Below, one piece after another: positions 2,960 to 62,693 of a stretch of DNA of 64,000 nt. The stretch is taken from positions 38,478 through 102,477 of the forward strand of contig SIBG01000001.1 of assembly GCA_009695305.1 (NCBI GenBank). Reading direction: 5' to 3'. The translations under genes were made by a program, and so were the position numbers. This stretch comes from Opitutus sp. (GTDB lineage: Bacteria; Verrucomicrobiota; Verrucomicrobiia; Opitutales; Opitutaceae). The notes beneath the pieces were generated by a model, which saw only the letters and a program-made list of their open reading frames with translations, was not told the origin of the DNA and did no database searches. The first letter of the stretch is position 1. The number at the start of each line of letters is the position of its first letter.

Positions 2960-3559
2960 TCAGCCCGCGCGGGCGCGCGCCTGGTGCAGAATCTCCAGCA
3001 GCGTGGCGAAGTCCTCATCGCGGGTGCGGCTTTCGATGCGGTGGTCAAATTTCGCCGCTTCACGCAGCTCGCGCTCGGCCGTCCTCATGCGGCCGGCGAT
3101 CTCGGCCTCATCGTCGCGGGCCCGTCCGCGCATCCGGGCAACCAGGCGCTCGTGATCCACCACGATAAACACCGTCGTCATCCGGCGGGCGAGCAGCGGG
3201 CTCGCCGCGGCGGCGCGGCGAAAACTCTCCACGCCCTGCACATCGAGGCTGATCACGAGGCTCTGGCCGCGGGCCAGTGGCTCGAGCACACTCGAGGCGA
3301 GCGTGCCGTAGCGGCGCTGACCATGGACCCACGCCCATTCGAGGAATTCGCCCGCGGCGATCTTCTGGTCGAACTGCCCGGGGGTGAGAAAATGGTAGTG
3401 CACGCCGTCGACCTCGTCCGTCCGCGAGGCCCGCGTGGTCGTCGTGACCACCCGGGCGAAATCGGGCACCTCGTGCACGAGCCGGTCGCACAGGGTGCTC
3501 TTGCCGGAGCCGGCGGGGCCGGCAATGACGAGGAGGACAGGGGTGGCGGGCGCGGGCAT
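2960..3559 (-). CDS. gmk: Guanylate kinase
   Basis: It phosphorylates GMP to GDP with ATP (199 aa, normal length). The P-loop is at about residues 14-21 (GPAGSGKST). The GMP-binding region follows as TTTTRASRTDEVDGVHYHF at about 40-58. The lid-domain arginines lie in GRMRTAERELREA. It stands 11 bp downstream of a membrane protein gene on the same strand. The closest alternative, the guanylate-kinase domain of MAGUK proteins, is not relevant in bacteria. Confidence 0.94.
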   Translation of the reverse strand: MPAPATPVLLVIAGPAGSGKSTLCDRLVHEVPDFARVVTTTTRASRTDEVDGVHYHFLTPGQFDQKIAAGEFLEWAWVHGQRRYGTLASSVLEPLARGQSLVISLDVQGVESFRRAAAASPLLARRMTTVFIVVDHERLVARMRGRARDDEAEIAGRMRTAERELREAAKFDHRIESRTRDEDFATLLEILHQARARAG

Positions 3560-3570
3560 CGCGGCGATTC

Positions 3571-4107
3571 TCAGTAGGTGAAAGCCACGAGCGCCAGCAG
3601 CAGGCCGTAGCCCGTCAGCGCGCCCCCGACGGCGCGCCCCCGGCCAGGCCGGGCAAAGAGCCAGCTGTTAAAATCCCGCAGGCGCCAGGGCTGGGCGCCG
3701 AGCCAGATGGCCAGCGCGATCGCCAGATAAACCAGACCGACCATGAGTAGCCGTTGCCGAGGCTCCTCCAGGTAGGCGGCCATGAGCAGCGGCCAGGCGC
3801 CGACGAGCGCGAGCACACACCCGCCGCGCACGGCGAGGAAATCAGGCACACATTTGAACGACAGCACCGCAATGGCGGCAAAGGCGATGAAGAGCAGCGT
3901 GCGGTAATCGCCGAAATCCGCGGGCGAGAGATGCCAGATGAGGTGGAGAAACCACGCCGCGCCCGCGCCAAAGAAAACATACGCCGCCCGCGTCGAGCGC
4001 GGGAACGCCTTCAGCACGGCGACAAAGCCGGAATGGTTGAGTAGCAGCGGCACGCCGAGCGCGAGGAGCAGCAGGCCGGGAAGGAGAGTGGCGAGGGAAA
4101 GCGACAT
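3571..4107 (-). CDS. Predicted integral membrane protein, unknown function
   Basis: This 178-residue protein is almost entirely hydrophobic, with about five or six likely membrane helices (roughly 5-25, 40-60, 68-88, 93-112, 120-140 and 158-178). It is rich in Leu, Ala and Trp, and no catalytic or ligand motif is evident. It sits directly upstream of gmk (11 bp) and downstream of miaB (81 bp gap with a GTTGAG-type repeat). I do not recognise the family. The coding call rests on length, codon bias and hydrophobic periodicity. Confidence 0.75.
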   Translation of the reverse strand: MSLSLATLLPGLLLLALGVPLLLNHSGFVAVLKAFPRSTRAAYVFFGAGAAWFLHLIWHLSPADFGDYRTLLFIAFAAIAVLSFKCVPDFLAVRGGCVLALVGAWPLLMAAYLEEPRQRLLMVGLVYLAIALAIWLGAQPWRLRDFNSWLFARPGRGRAVGGALTGYGLLLALVAFTY

Positions 4108-11853: not shown

Positions 11854-12432
11854 ATGCCCGCGCTCGTGGAAAACTTCCTGAAGGCCTTTATCCCACTCTT
11901 TGTGGCGATCGATCCGATCGGGCTCGCCGCGGTCTTTCTCGGGCTCGGCCAGGGTGTGCCGGTGGTCACACGCAAGAAAATCGCCAACCAGGCGGCGTGG
12001 ACGGGCGGCGCGGTGGCGCTGCTGTTTCTGTTTCTCGGGCAGACGATCTTTGCCGCGCTGGGGATTTCCCCGAGTGATTTTCAAATCGCGGGCGGGCTCA
12101 TCCTGTTTATCCTCGCCGCGCGCGACCTCGTCCAGTCCGCCGCGGAGGAGCCGGCGAAACTCGCCGACGATTTTGGCGTCGTGCCGCTGGGGATGCCGCT
12201 GATCGCGGGGCCGGCGTCGATCACGACGCTCATTCTTCTCGCGCAGACGCTCGGCGTGGCGGTGACCTTCGCCGCGCTCGTCGTGAATCTCGTGATCGTG
12301 GTGCTCGCCTTCGCCTACAGCGAACGGCTCGGCCGGCTCATTGGGGCGACGGGCATGCGGGCGATTTCGAAAATCGTCTCGATGCTGCTCGCCGCGATCG
12401 CGGTAAATATGATCCGGCAGGGGTTGAAGTAG
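11854..12432 (+). CDS. MarC family integral membrane protein (UPF0056)
   Basis: This six-helix inner-membrane protein of 192 aa has the family motifs FIPLFVAIDPIGLAAVF near the N-terminus and VPLGMPLIAGPASITTLI in the middle. The transported substrate of MarC proteins is unknown, and the old link with antibiotic resistance is not well supported. I start at the ATG at 11854 (MPALVENFLKAF), because upstream residues are repeat-derived and polar. Its TAG stop lies in the left arm of an inverted repeat shared with the convergent M20 peptidase gene. Confidence 0.9.
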   Translation: MPALVENFLKAFIPLFVAIDPIGLAAVFLGLGQGVPVVTRKKIANQAAWTGGAVALLFLFLGQTIFAALGISPSDFQIAGGLILFILAARDLVQSAAEEPAKLADDFGVVPLGMPLIAGPASITTLILLAQTLGVAVTFAALVVNLVIVVLAFAYSERLGRLIGATGMRAISKIVSMLLAAIAVNMIRQGLK

Positions 12433-12538
12433 CGCGGTGCTTTAGCCCGCGTTGTAGGGCTGCCGCTTGTCGGCAGGCCGCGGCCCGGCGACGAGCGCCG
12501 GCCCTACAAACTGAACGCGGGCGGAAGTCTCGCGCTAC
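12429..12538. repeat. Large nested inverted repeat spanning two convergent stop codons
   Basis: Three nested arm pairs are present: GTAGCGCG (12429-12436) with CGCGCTAC (12531-12538), GCCCGCGTT (12445-12453) with AACGCGGGC (12514-12522), and TTGTAGGGC (12452-12460) with GCCCTACAA (12501-12509). The outermost arms contain the TAG stops of marC and of the convergent peptidase gene. A long hairpin in either transcript could act as a terminator, though there is no U-tract. Confidence 0.65.
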
Positions 12539-18355: not shown

Positions 18356-18365
18356 ACTGAGGCGG

Positions 18366-18400
18366 CGGCTTCCAGCCGCAGAATCACCGGCTGGAAGCCG
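18366..18400. repeat. Intergenic hairpin, 13 bp perfect arms (GGCTTCCAGCC type)
   Basis: CGGCTTCCAGCCG (18366-18378) and CGGCTGGAAGCCG (18388-18400) flank a 9 nt loop just after the lipoate-ligase-like gene. There is no U-tract. The sequence resembles the GGCTTCAGCCGG hairpin at 22092-22170 that bounds the same broken gene on its other side. Confidence 0.7.
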
Positions 18401-18448
18401 GAGCCACGGCGCACAATGAACTCGCCCTGGCGCTGCGCTGCCAGGAAG

Positions 18449-21400
18449 ATGCCGCCATTCCCCCTGCGCGTGTCCGCTTCCACTAACAAGGCCGTCTTCC
18501 TCTCCTACGCGTCGCAAGATGCGGTGACAGCGCTCCGTGTTTGCGAGGCACTGCGCGCGGCGAGCATCGAGGTCTGGTTCGACCAGAGCGAGCTGCGGGG
18601 TGGCGATGTGTGGGACCAGAAAATCAAGAAGTAGATCCGCGAGTGCGCGCTGTTTCTGCCGTTAATCTCGGCCAACACCAATGCGCGCGCCGAGGGCTAC
18701 TTCCGGCTCGAGTGGAAACTGGCGGTCGATCGCTCCCACCTCATGGCCGATGACGCGCCGTTCATCGTGCCGGCCGTGATCGATGACGTGCCCGACGCCA
18801 CGGCCCGGGTGCCGGACAAATTTCGCGAGGTGCAGTGGACGCGCCTGCGGTCCGACGACGCGTCGGCGGCGTTCGCGGCGCGGATGCTGGCTCTCTTGAC
18901 GGGAGCAGCGGAACCGAAACAAACCAAGACGCACGACACTCCGTCCAAACCGTCGACCGCTGAAACGAAAACCAAGCCGACCGTCATCGTCGAACCCGCG
19001 CCAACTTTGGACTGGCGCCCGGCGCCGGATGTCTCGGTTCCCGGCACGAAGTGGATGCTCGAACGGAAGCTGGGCGAAGGCGGCTTCGGCGAGGTGTGGC
19101 TCGGCCGCCATCAGACGATGAAGGAGCATCGCGTGTTCAAGTTCTGTTTTCGTGAGGACCACGTGCGCTCGCTGAAACGCGAGCTGACGCTTTTCCGCGT
19201 GCTCAAGGAGCGCGTGGGCGGCCACCCGAACATCGTGCGGTTGCTCGACGTCCATTTCGACGAGCCGCCCTTCTACGTGGAGATGGACTACGTCGAGGGC
19301 CAGAGCCTGAAGGTCTGGTGCGAACAACAGGGCGGCGTGGAAAAAATCCCGCTCGCCGCGCGCCTCGAAATCGTCGCGCAGATCGCCGACGCCCTGCACG
19401 CCGCGCACACCGCCGGCGTGATCCACCGCGATGTGAAGCCGGGTAACATTTTGATCGCGCAGTCCGCGACGCCTCACGCGCAACCGACCGCCAAGCTCAG
19501 CGACTTTGGCATCGGGCAAGTGACTTCCGAGGACGCGCTCAGCGGTGTGACGAAGAGCGGCTTCACGCAGTCCATCGTGGTGGATTCATCGTCGGCGCGC
19601 TCGGGCACGCAGTTGTATATGGCGCCGGAGTTGGCCGCCGGAGTGCCGGCATCCGTGCGCTCCGACCTGTATTCGCTGGGCGTGGTGCTGTTTCAACTCG
19701 TGGTCGGCGACATGCATCGGCCGCTGACGACCGATTGGTCGCAGTCGGTCGACGATCCGATGTTGCGCGAGGATTTGACGCGGTGCTTCGCGAGCCGGTC
19801 CGAGGAACGTTTTGCGAGCGCCGATCTGCTGGCGCAAAGCCTGCGCGCGTTTGAGTCGCGGCGCGCCGCTTTCGCCACGGAGCAGGCTGCGGCGGCGGCC
19901 CGACAGCGGGCGGCACAACGGTGGAGGATTTTCCGCACGGCTGCCGTCGCCGTCGTCGTGGTCGGTTTGGGCGCGAGCTTGATCTGGTTTCTCCAGCGCA
20001 ACTCGAAACTCCGCTGGGCGCGGCAGCAGGCGTTGCCCGAGATCAGCCGGCTCCTCCAAGCGAATGAAATCTCCGCCGCGTTTGCGCTGGCGATCGAAGC
20101 CGAAAAATATCTGCCCGACGATCCGGCCCTGACGAATCTCTGGCAGCGACTCGCGGCCAAAGCCTCCGTCGAGACGACGCCGGCTGGCGCGGACGTTTAC
20201 ACCAAGGAGTATCGGAAACCGAATTCCGAATGGCGGCGCCTCGGGAAGTCGCCGTTGAAGGACATCCGTGTGTCGAGAGTTTTCTACCGATGGCAGATTC
20301 GCAAGGAGGGCTATGAAACGCTTGAGCAGGCAGTGGGCGTGGGGGCTGCACTCAAGTTTTCCCTCGACCCGACCGGCGCGATCCCGCCGGGCATGGTGCG
20401 CGTGCAGGGGACCACCACGAGCGCGACGTTTACTGGACTGCCATCCGTGCAACTGGACGATTACTCCATCGACCGGCACGAAGTCACCAACCGCCAGTTC
20501 AAGGAGTTCGTCGACCGTGGCGGCTACGCCAACGCCGATTACTGGAAGCAGTCTTTCGTCAAGCAGGGCAAAACACTCACACGGGCGGAGGCGATGGCCG
20601 AGTTCCGCGACCTGACGGGCCAACCTGGACCGGCGAAGTGGAAGAACGGGACGTTTCCCGATGGCGAAGCTGACCACCCCGTGACCGGGATTAGTTGGTT
20701 CGAGGCGGCGGCCTATGCCGAGTTCGCAGGGAAGAGGCTTCCTTCCATCTACCATTGGCGCTCGGCATCGCTCATCGCGGCGGTCGAATCGATCGTGCCC
20801 CTCAGCAATTTCGCCGGCAAGGGTCTCGCCCGCGTTGGCAGTTACCAGGGCATGAGCGCTTGCGGCGCATTCGACATGGCCGGCAACGCGAAGGAGTGGT
20901 GCTGGAACGAAGCCGGTCCGGAAACGCGCTACATTTTGGGCGGCGCGTGGCGCGAACCCGACTACATGTTTACGCAAGCGGATGCGCTGTCGCCGTTCGA
21001 CCGTTCCGCCGTAAACGGATTTCGCTGCATAAAGCTGCTCACCGCCGGCGCGCTGCCCACGAACGTTGACGACGCGCTCGTGCCCGTTTTGCGCAATTTC
21101 GCGAACGAACAGCCCGTGAGCGACGAGGCTTTCCGAATCTTTCGCAGTCTCTACTCCTACGACAAGACCGCACTGGATCCACGCGTCGAAACGTCGGACG
21201 ACTCCGAAAACAGATGGCGCAAAGAGAGAATCTCCTTCAATGCCGCCTACGGTAATGAGCGCATGGCGGCGATTGTGTTCCTGCCCAAGAAATCCCCGTC
21301 ACCCTGCCAAGTCGTCATTTATTTCCCTGGGACCAGCGCCCGCCAACAACCGTCGAGCGAAAGACTGGCCGGCAACGCCATGGATACGGTTAACCTCGTG

Positions 21401-22075
21401 GTCGGAAGTGGCCGGGCCTTCATTCGCTGTGGGTCCGATACCCCGAAGCTTGCTTCGGCTTGGTTGGACGGACGGGTTTAAGCGCGAATTGCATTATGGT
21501 CGGATGAGTTTGCGGCGGTCTTGTCAAATGCCCCGGGGCTTGCCCCGGGGATTTTTACTTATCCTATTTACAAGGGCACCCACGAACGCGGCGGCGATTT
21601 GCGAGGCGTCTCATTCGTCACCCTCGGATCGGGCGCCTACCGCGACTATTTCGTCCAGCTTTCGAAGGATTTGAGCCGCACCATCGACTATGTCGAAACG
21701 CGTCAGGATCTTCAGGCCGATCAGCTGGCTTATATGGGCTACAGCTGGGGGGCGGTGATGGGCTCAGTGCTTCCGGCGCTCGAGCGCCGCATCAAGGTGA
21801 ACGTGCTCATGATTGGTGGACTGGTCATGGACACGAGGTTTCCGGAGTCAGACCAAATCAACTTTGCACCGCGAATCACGATACCGACCCTGATGCTGAA
21901 CGGACGTTACGACTTCAGATTCCCGCTAGAAACGTCGCAACGGCCCATGTTCCGTCTGCTCGGCGCCAAAGACAAGGACCACGTGCTGTTCGAGACCGGC
22001 CACGCGTTAGCTGCGGACCAAATCTCCAAGCCTGTCCTCGATTGGTTGGACAAGTATCTCGGGCCGGTGAAGTGA
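18449..22075 (+). pseudogene. Broken TIR - Ser/Thr kinase - PEGA - formylglycine-enzyme-like - alpha/beta hydrolase gene
   Basis: One reading frame of 1209 codons is interrupted twice. Segment 1 (18449-18634) begins a TIR domain (AVFLSYASQDA, EVWFDQSELRGGDVWDQKIKK) and ends at an in-frame TAG. The TIR domain continues without a gap (IRECALFLPLISANTNARAE, YFRLEWKLAVDRS), and the next usable ATG is at 18743. Segment 2 (to 21481) holds a complete kinase (GEGGFGEVW, VIHRDVKPGN, SDFGIG, MAPEL), a transmembrane helix, a PEGA repeat and a formylglycine-generating-enzyme-like domain (DRHEVTNRQFKEFVD, GAFDMAGNAKEWCW). A hydrolase domain then starts and is cut at about 21430 by an in-frame REP-type insert with a TAA. 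It resumes as PIYKGTHERGGD, with nucleophile motif GYSWG. An ATG at 18416 is an alternative start. Confidence 0.85.
21430..21563 (+). mobile_element. REP-type double palindrome inserted in the hydrolase domain
   Basis: Two palindromes in the same orientation lie about 75 bp apart: CCGAAGCTTGCTTCGG (21443-21458, preceded by GATACC) and CCCCGGGGCTTGCCCCGGGG (21531-21550, followed by ATTTTT). Both share the form CCCC-stem-CTTG-stem seen in REP sequences mobilised by RayT (TnpA-REP) transposases. The flanking protein reads GSGRAFIR before and YPIYKGTHERG after, which would join naturally if this insert were removed. Exact ends are uncertain by several bases. Confidence 0.6.
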
Positions 22076-22091
22076 AAGGGCACCGCTGGTT

Positions 22092-22170
22092 GAGTTCGTA
22101 GCACCGGCTTCAGCCGGAATCCGAAACACTGTCGCCAAGACATTCCGGCTGAAGCCGGCGCTACGAACTC
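22092..22170. repeat. Large intergenic inverted repeat, 29 bp arms with one mismatch
   Basis: Left arm 22092-22120 begins GAGTTCGTAGC and contains CCGGCTTCAGCCGG; right arm 22142-22170 is its reverse complement except for one base. The 21 nt spacer is unremarkable. The arms contain a second, internal palindrome. No U-tract follows, so this looks more like a palindromic repeat element than a terminator. It fills the gap between the broken TIR-kinase gene and the S9 peptidase. Confidence 0.75.
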
Positions 22171-22217
22171 GGGCTGGCTTTGACTCGCGGCGCGCGGGGG
22201 TCCAACGTCGCCGGTCT

Positions 22218-24315: not shown

Positions 24316-24387
24316 GTAGGGCGTCTGTCTTGCAGACGCCGCTCGGCCTTCCGACGAATAACGGCGTCTGCAAGACAGACGCCCTAC
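24316..24387. repeat. Large intergenic inverted repeat, 26 bp perfect arms (GTAGGGCGTCTG type)
   Basis: Left arm 24316-24341 starts GTAGGGCGTCTGTCTTGCAG and right arm 24362-24387 is its exact reverse complement, ending in GCCCTAC. The loop is 20 nt. It sits between the convergent S9 peptidase and TrmA-family gene. The outer GTAGGGC/GCCCTAC tips match those at 9115-9190 and 12452-12509. Confidence 0.8.
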
Positions 24388-32549: not shown

Positions 32550-33239
32550 ATGAACGTGGTCGTGCTCTGTTCCGGCGGGATGGATTCGGTGACGGCGCTC
32601 CATTGGGCGCGGCGCGAGCACACGGTCGTGGCGGCGATGAGCTTCGACTATGGGGCGAAGCACAACCCGCGGGAGATTCCGCTGGCGCGGGAGCAGGCGA
32701 AGGTTGGTGGCGTGCGGCATGAGATCGTGAAATTGGATTTTGTCGCGCGGCTGTTTGCGTCGACTTTACTGGAGAGCGGCGGGGCGATTCCGGATGGACA
32801 CTACGAGGCGGAGAACATGAAGCAGACGGTGGTGCCCTTTCGAAATGCGGTCATGCTTTCGATTGCGTGCGGCTTCGCGGAGAGCGCGGGCGCGGAGGGG
32901 TTGGTCATCGCGGCGCACGGCGGGGATCACGCGATCTACCCGGACTGTCGCGAGGAATTCATGCAGGCGATGGGCGACGCGATGCGGCTCGGCACGTATG
33001 CGGGCGTGAAGTTGCTGCGGCCGTTCATCGCGATGAGCAAGGGCCAGATCGCCGCCGAAGGCGCGCGGCTCGGCGTGGATTTTTCGCGCACGTGGTCCTG
33101 CTATAAGGGCGGTGCGATCCACTGCGGCACGTGCGGCACGTGCGTGGAGCGCCGCGAGGCGTTCATGCAGGCGGGCCTGTTGGATCCGACAGAATATGCG
33201 TCAAATGAGGCGCTGCCTCCGAAGCCAAGCCAGTTTTAA
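32550..33239 (+). CDS. queC: 7-cyano-7-deazaguanine synthase
   Basis: It converts 7-carboxy-7-deazaguanine to preQ0 using ATP and ammonia (229 aa). The PP-loop SGGMDSVTALHWA is at residues 8-20. GGDHAIYPDCREEF and the C-terminal zinc site (SCYKGGAIHCGTCGTCVERREAF) are conserved. The ATG at 32550 gives the normal start MNVVVLCSGG. It is followed 80 bp later by queE, with an ACCACGGAT-type repeat between them. Confidence 0.96.
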   Translation: MNVVVLCSGGMDSVTALHWARREHTVVAAMSFDYGAKHNPREIPLAREQAKVGGVRHEIVKLDFVARLFASTLLESGGAIPDGHYEAENMKQTVVPFRNAVMLSIACGFAESAGAEGLVIAAHGGDHAIYPDCREEFMQAMGDAMRLGTYAGVKLLRPFIAMSKGQIAAEGARLGVDFSRTWSCYKGGAIHCGTCGTCVERREAFMQAGLLDPTEYASNEALPPKPSQF

Positions 33240-33312
33240 CCACGGATTTCACGGATGAACTCGGATGGAAAACGCCTTTATCCGTGCCCATCGGTGCAAT
33301 CCGTGGATAGTT
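33240..33312. repeat. ACCACGGATTTCACGGAT-type repeat between queC and queE
   Basis: ACCACGGATTTCACGGATGA (33240-33259) is followed by ATCCGTGCCCATCGGTGCAA and ATCCGTGGATAG, giving a loose inverted repeat of the ACGGAT word. It fills the whole 80 bp gap. A related copy lies at 62603-62681. Confidence 0.65.
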
Positions 33313-62582: not shown

Positions 62583-62602
62583 ATTCTGAAAAAAGGAATT
62601 AA

Positions 62603-62681
62603 CCACGGATCACACGGATGGACACGGATCACACCATCGCCGCGTGGATCGAATCCGCGCTCATGCGTGAAATCCGTGGTC
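62603..62681. repeat. ACCACGGAT-type repeat after the epimerase gene
   Basis: ACCACGGATCACACGGATGG (62603-62622) and ATGCGTGAAATCCGTGGT (62664-62681) form an inverted pair in the gap between the epimerase and the frameshifted DUF486 gene. A related copy fills the queC-queE gap at 33240-33312. Confidence 0.6.
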
Positions 62682-62693
62682 AAAAATCAGGCA

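Follow-up and report, generated by a model that had tools for sequence, protein, structure and literature searches.

GTAG-tagged REPs, their head-to-head dimers, the REPtrons in which a RAYT is flanked by the same REP, and intragenic REP copies have all been described (PMC3733652). REPINs (PMC3116915), recognition by TnpA-REP, as the RAYT is also called (PMC8266576), and the use of REPs as targets by insertion sequences (PMC1525189) have been reported as well. In Opitutus terrae several REP families coexist, one of them GTGG-tagged (PMC3733652). Some REP-bearing genomes are without REPtrons (PMC3733652); a cognate RAYT in the same genome, though usual, is therefore not a defining requirement of a REP, and orphan REPs are known.

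The window considered here, a stretch of 64,000 nucleotides from Opitutus sp. (contig SIBG01000001.1 of assembly GCA_009695305.1), contains a broken TIR-kinase gene with a hairpin on either side. The downstream hairpin, hairpin B (22092-22170), consists of 29-nt arms (22092-22120 and 22142-22170), 97% complementary and separated by a 21-nt gap. Its RNA fold has an energy of -56.9 kcal/mol (z -12.5), and a chance origin is excluded because no inverted repeat of at least 25 nt arose when the 64-kb window was resampled 100 times at order 1. Each arm is composed of GTAG, two bases and CCGGCTTCAGCCGG, with the arms opposed and the tags outermost. The left REP unit (22098-22120, forward strand) has its GTAG tag at 22098-22101 and the mini-hairpin CCGGCTTCAGCCGG at 22104-22117; the right, inverted unit (22142-22164, reverse strand) has its tag at 22164-22161 and its mini-hairpin at 22158-22145. 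A GTAG tag adjoining a short G+C-rich stem-loop is thus found on both arms, and the inverted dimer makes one long hairpin, as in known GTAG REPINs. Hairpin B is a REPIN, or BIME, of two GTAG-tagged REP units placed head to head. It resembles the described GTAG REPs and REPINs in the tag, the 6-bp stem, the 2-nt loop, the dimeric arrangement around a 21-nt spacer, the intergenic position 3' of a gene, and the existence, in other genomes, of a RAYT flanked by the same REP. It differs from them in that its own genome holds few copies and yielded no close cognate RAYT.

Hairpin B belongs to a dispersed multicopy family (family B). In its own genome the family is represented by two dimers, hairpin B and one on contig C108, and by a single unit on contig C36; the bare core motif is not over-represented there (27 occurrences vs 25 in the control). 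Matches to the family were found in 8 of the 95 genomes searched, the own one included, with most of those among relatives in G042 (19) and G017 (13), figures in which one copy can count on both strands. Searching GTDB species for the exact unit retrieved 86 stretches, spanning Opitutaceae and other Verrucomicrobiota, planctomycetes, acidobacteria, Lentisphaeria and Kiritimatiellae.

REPtrons of family B occur in several of these genomes. In a Pirellulaceae locus (L198), a RAYT at 3349-3945 has family B REPs on both sides; the protein, of 198 amino acids with an HYH motif, scores above the NCBIfam cut-off for REP-associated tyrosine transposases (91 vs 80 bits). A homologous RAYT from Lentisphaeria (L258) has family B REP dimers on both sides, and its stop codon is provided by the tag of the downstream REP. 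A third RAYT of this type (L192), damaged, lies beside a family B REP. Within Opitutaceae, a RAYT of the focal type in G056 (L304, contig C128, after position 520) is followed by hairpins whose core, CCGACTTCAGTCGG, is a variant of the family B core with compensatory changes.

The cognate RAYT type was recovered only through the scan around GTDB copies of the family, since its scores with Pfam models are weak or missing altogether. A PF01797 search of the relatives that carry family B REPs gave other REPtrons and not the cognate RAYT, and the L013-like RAYTs of relatives accompany other REPs, not family B. In the own genome, an 87% complete assembly, the search for the cognate RAYT gave no close relative of it, only a distant one (contig C131), and a match was likewise absent from G017. 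Hairpin B is either an orphan in its own genome or the partner of a RAYT in the portion that the assembly lacks. As own-genome copies are few and no close cognate RAYT accompanies them, the mobility of family B here is judged from other genomes; by analogy with the REPtrons found there, hairpin B would be a non-autonomous repeat mobilised by a RAYT.

The upstream hairpin, hairpin A, had been placed at 18366-18400 in the earlier note and extends over 18361-18405, with 18-nt arms that are 89% complementary. It is a REP dimer as well, with a GTGG-type tag and the core CGGCTTCCAGCCG, and the RAYT on contig C81 of the same genome has this core and a GTGGC tag on both sides. RAYTs of relatives that are 50-60% identical to that of C81 have flanking REPs of their own, mostly GTGGC-tagged, with other cores. 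Hairpin A, with a GTGG tag on one arm, is comparable to the GTAG-20 REPs of Opitutus terrae, which are mostly GTGG-tagged (PMC3733652); the C81 RAYT with its GTGG-tagged flanking REPs is also comparable, a likeness drawn from the description of the tags. The host of hairpin A and Opitutus terrae likely belong to the same taxonomic family. The two hairpins had been regarded as similar in design, which is correct insofar as both are REP dimers; since their cores, tags (GTGG vs GTAG) and RAYTs differ, they represent two families.

REPs also occur in the window away from the TIR-kinase gene, at three sites absent from the earlier note. A site at 9190 matches the REPs of the RAYT on contig C27. The second site (12454-12507) falls within a REP cluster (GTAGGGC..., 12429-12538) between unrelated genes, and a related REP lies beside a RAYT on C78. 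The third (24316-24387), between the S9 peptidase and RNA methyltransferase genes, is a REP dimer of another family (GTAGGGCGTCTGTCTTGCAGACGCC) with a RAYT on C121. Five Y1-transposase loci of the genome bear GTAG-REPs of their own. A further palindromic repeat family, ACCACGGATTTCACGGAT..., occupies 33237-33309 and 62599-62683; it is not a REP, and similar repeats are present in relatives (L409).

The gene between the hairpins (18449-22075, forward strand) encodes, by domain search, TIR, Ser/Thr kinase and FGE-sulfatase (SUMF1-like) domains and a weak alpha/beta-hydrolase-like tail that falls below the Pfam cut-offs. That it is broken, as the earlier note stated, is borne out by two disruptions, an in-frame TAG (18632-18634) and an insert. 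The insert, described earlier as a REP-type element, is instead an IS200/IS605-type miniature element (MITE) of 135 bp (21424-21558, forward strand) without a GTAG tag; it lies 3' of TTCAT (21419-21423) and introduces an in-frame TAA at 21479. The 4.3-Mb assembly contains 40 or more copies that are 99-100% identical, among them 135-bp copies on contigs C90, C134, C120 and others. The left flank is TTCAT in every copy for which it is available, and the right flank starts with TT. As in IS200/IS605 elements, hairpins lie subterminally at both ends (CCGAAGCTTGCTTCGG and CCCCGGGGCTTGCCCCGGGG), and the target motif is fixed and not duplicated. In these features and in its many identical copies the insert resembles IS200/IS605-derived miniature elements (PATE- or MITE-like); it differs in that the Y1 transposase loci examined showed no parent whose ends match. 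The insert is thus not a REP and makes a third family beside the GTGG-REP and the GTAG-REP. The insert family appears as a recent burst, which also breaks the TIR-kinase gene.

TIR genes of this type are strongly expanded, with 19 matches in the own genome and 41 in G042, partly in tandem arrays (e.g., L397 and L401). In-frame stops interrupt several of those in the own genome (C52, C63 and the window). A leader, CACAATGAACTCGCC, common to other TIR genes, starts just after hairpin A (18410-18430, forward strand). It is part of a conserved stretch (about CACAATGAACTCGCC...GCGCCGTTCCC, 18410-18448) that precedes several TIR genes here and in G042 (L359, L365, L373 and L382) and is possibly the promoter or leader of this gene family.

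The comparison of flanks in relatives that the earlier note proposed shows that in G036 and G039, the nearest two genomes with synteny, nothing separates the lipoate ligase gene from the S9 peptidase gene after it, and the TIR-kinase gene and both hairpins are missing; the TIR-kinase block (18356-22171, edges approximate) is therefore accessory. Hairpin A begins six bases past the stop codon of the lipoate ligase, and hairpin B begins 17 nt past that of the TIR-kinase gene and is followed at once by the S9 peptidase leader GGCTTTGACTC... (22174-22217, forward strand), which is common to the relatives. Both hairpins sit at host/block junctions, and the bracketing that had been claimed is real. 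Their fit to the block edges, to within about 6 nt, is unusually tight and not something that random landing would require. A single inserted gene has only two gaps beside it, and REPs that lie between genes could hardly be elsewhere.

Very probably, hairpin B is a GTAG REPIN scattered by a RAYT, hairpin A is the independent landing of another REP family, and neither moved the gene. In single-stranded DNA or RNA the REP units of hairpin B would fold together as a single long hairpin. A RAYT, an HUH-type tyrosine transposase related to the TnpA of IS200/IS605, would recognise single-stranded DNA by the GTAG tag and the mini-hairpin and scatter REP copies, chiefly to the intergenic gaps that lie 3' of genes. 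One such copy may have landed in the short gap between the TIR-kinase and S9 peptidase genes, and hairpin A may have landed independently in the upstream gap. REPs in both gaps around one inserted gene would then look like brackets.

The best-surviving alternative, an improbable one, would make the hairpins either the termini of a TIR-kinase cassette that was mobilised or the marks of an insertion hot spot, guided by REPs, into which the gene was taken. It would account for a block that is missing in G036 and G039 and has a hairpin at each edge, and some insertion sequences do target REPs (PMC1525189). In G042, moreover, another TIR gene that shares the leader of the broken one has a family B REP dimer immediately before it. 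However, hairpins A and B, as members of different REP families, do not provide the matching ends of a composite transposon or mobile cassette, no target duplication was evident on inspection of the block, and the empty ligase-peptidase site of G036 and G039 has no REP. Nor was the same unit found at the own-genome kinase/FGE loci or at TIR genes elsewhere, which are mostly without REPs or have other REPs. The expectation of the same hairpins around other TIR or kinase genes failed at the own-genome kinase/FGE homologs, where 27.7 kb contained no head-to-head REP dimer. Among 105 loci with family B REPs, a close TIR homolog was nearby in one (L195, in G042), and a few had distant kinase or hydrolase matches.

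Inverted repeats of at least 14 nt were counted within 200 nt upstream of genes, which a rough home-made program had called in 364 kb from the own genome and 320 kb from G042. Such repeats preceded 3 of 19 TIR genes vs 17 of 261 others in the own genome (Fisher p 0.14), 7 of 32 vs 29 of 205 in G042 (p 0.19), and 10 of 51 vs 46 of 466 when pooled (p 0.036). This enrichment is marginal: it emerged after several looks, involves repeats from many families, and is significant in neither genome. The earlier note held that its reading would fail if the hairpins lay at sites unlinked to accessory genes, and this is largely what was seen, in that the same or sibling REP dimers occur beside and between unrelated genes in the window and in control stretches. 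Its reading, in which three palindromes at one locus indicate a hot spot or cassette, is borne out insofar as the two hairpins lie at the edges of an accessory block, but the three elements are of three unrelated families. A cassette or hot-spot mechanism, conceivable as it is, is not supported. It is likewise improbable that intergenic REP dimers serve as landing or exchange sites for TIR-kinase blocks in Opitutaceae and that REP transposases thereby indirectly shape gene turnover.

Less probable again is that hairpin B acts mainly at the transcript end, where selection for the upstream gene would have favoured it as a terminator or mRNA stabiliser. The 17-nt distance from the stop codon and the very stable fold would suit this role, and REPs downstream of genes have been proposed as RNA elements (PMC3733652). 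Against it, no T-run follows hairpin B, the upstream gene is broken, copies elsewhere adjoin unrelated genes, and the hairpin is not conserved at this site in relatives. A secondary RNA effect of hairpin B is possible.

An unrelated RNA gene or miRNA-like precursor, raised by a weak Rfam match to MIR1432, can be dismissed, as the match, of 33.7 bits, lies far below the gathering score of 90 for this plant miRNA family and is of a kind that long hairpins produce by chance, and the REPtron evidence speaks, for practical purposes, against that identity.

The hairpins are ordinary REP dimers of a kind already known. What had been suspected to be a special cassette becomes a readable case of RAYT-driven repeats and IS200/IS605-type miniature elements piling up around an accessory gene. 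The pairing of two REP families, with cores CCGGCTTCAGCCGG and CGGCTTCCAGCCG, with their RAYTs makes REP recognition directly testable in Verrucomicrobiota and planctomycetes.
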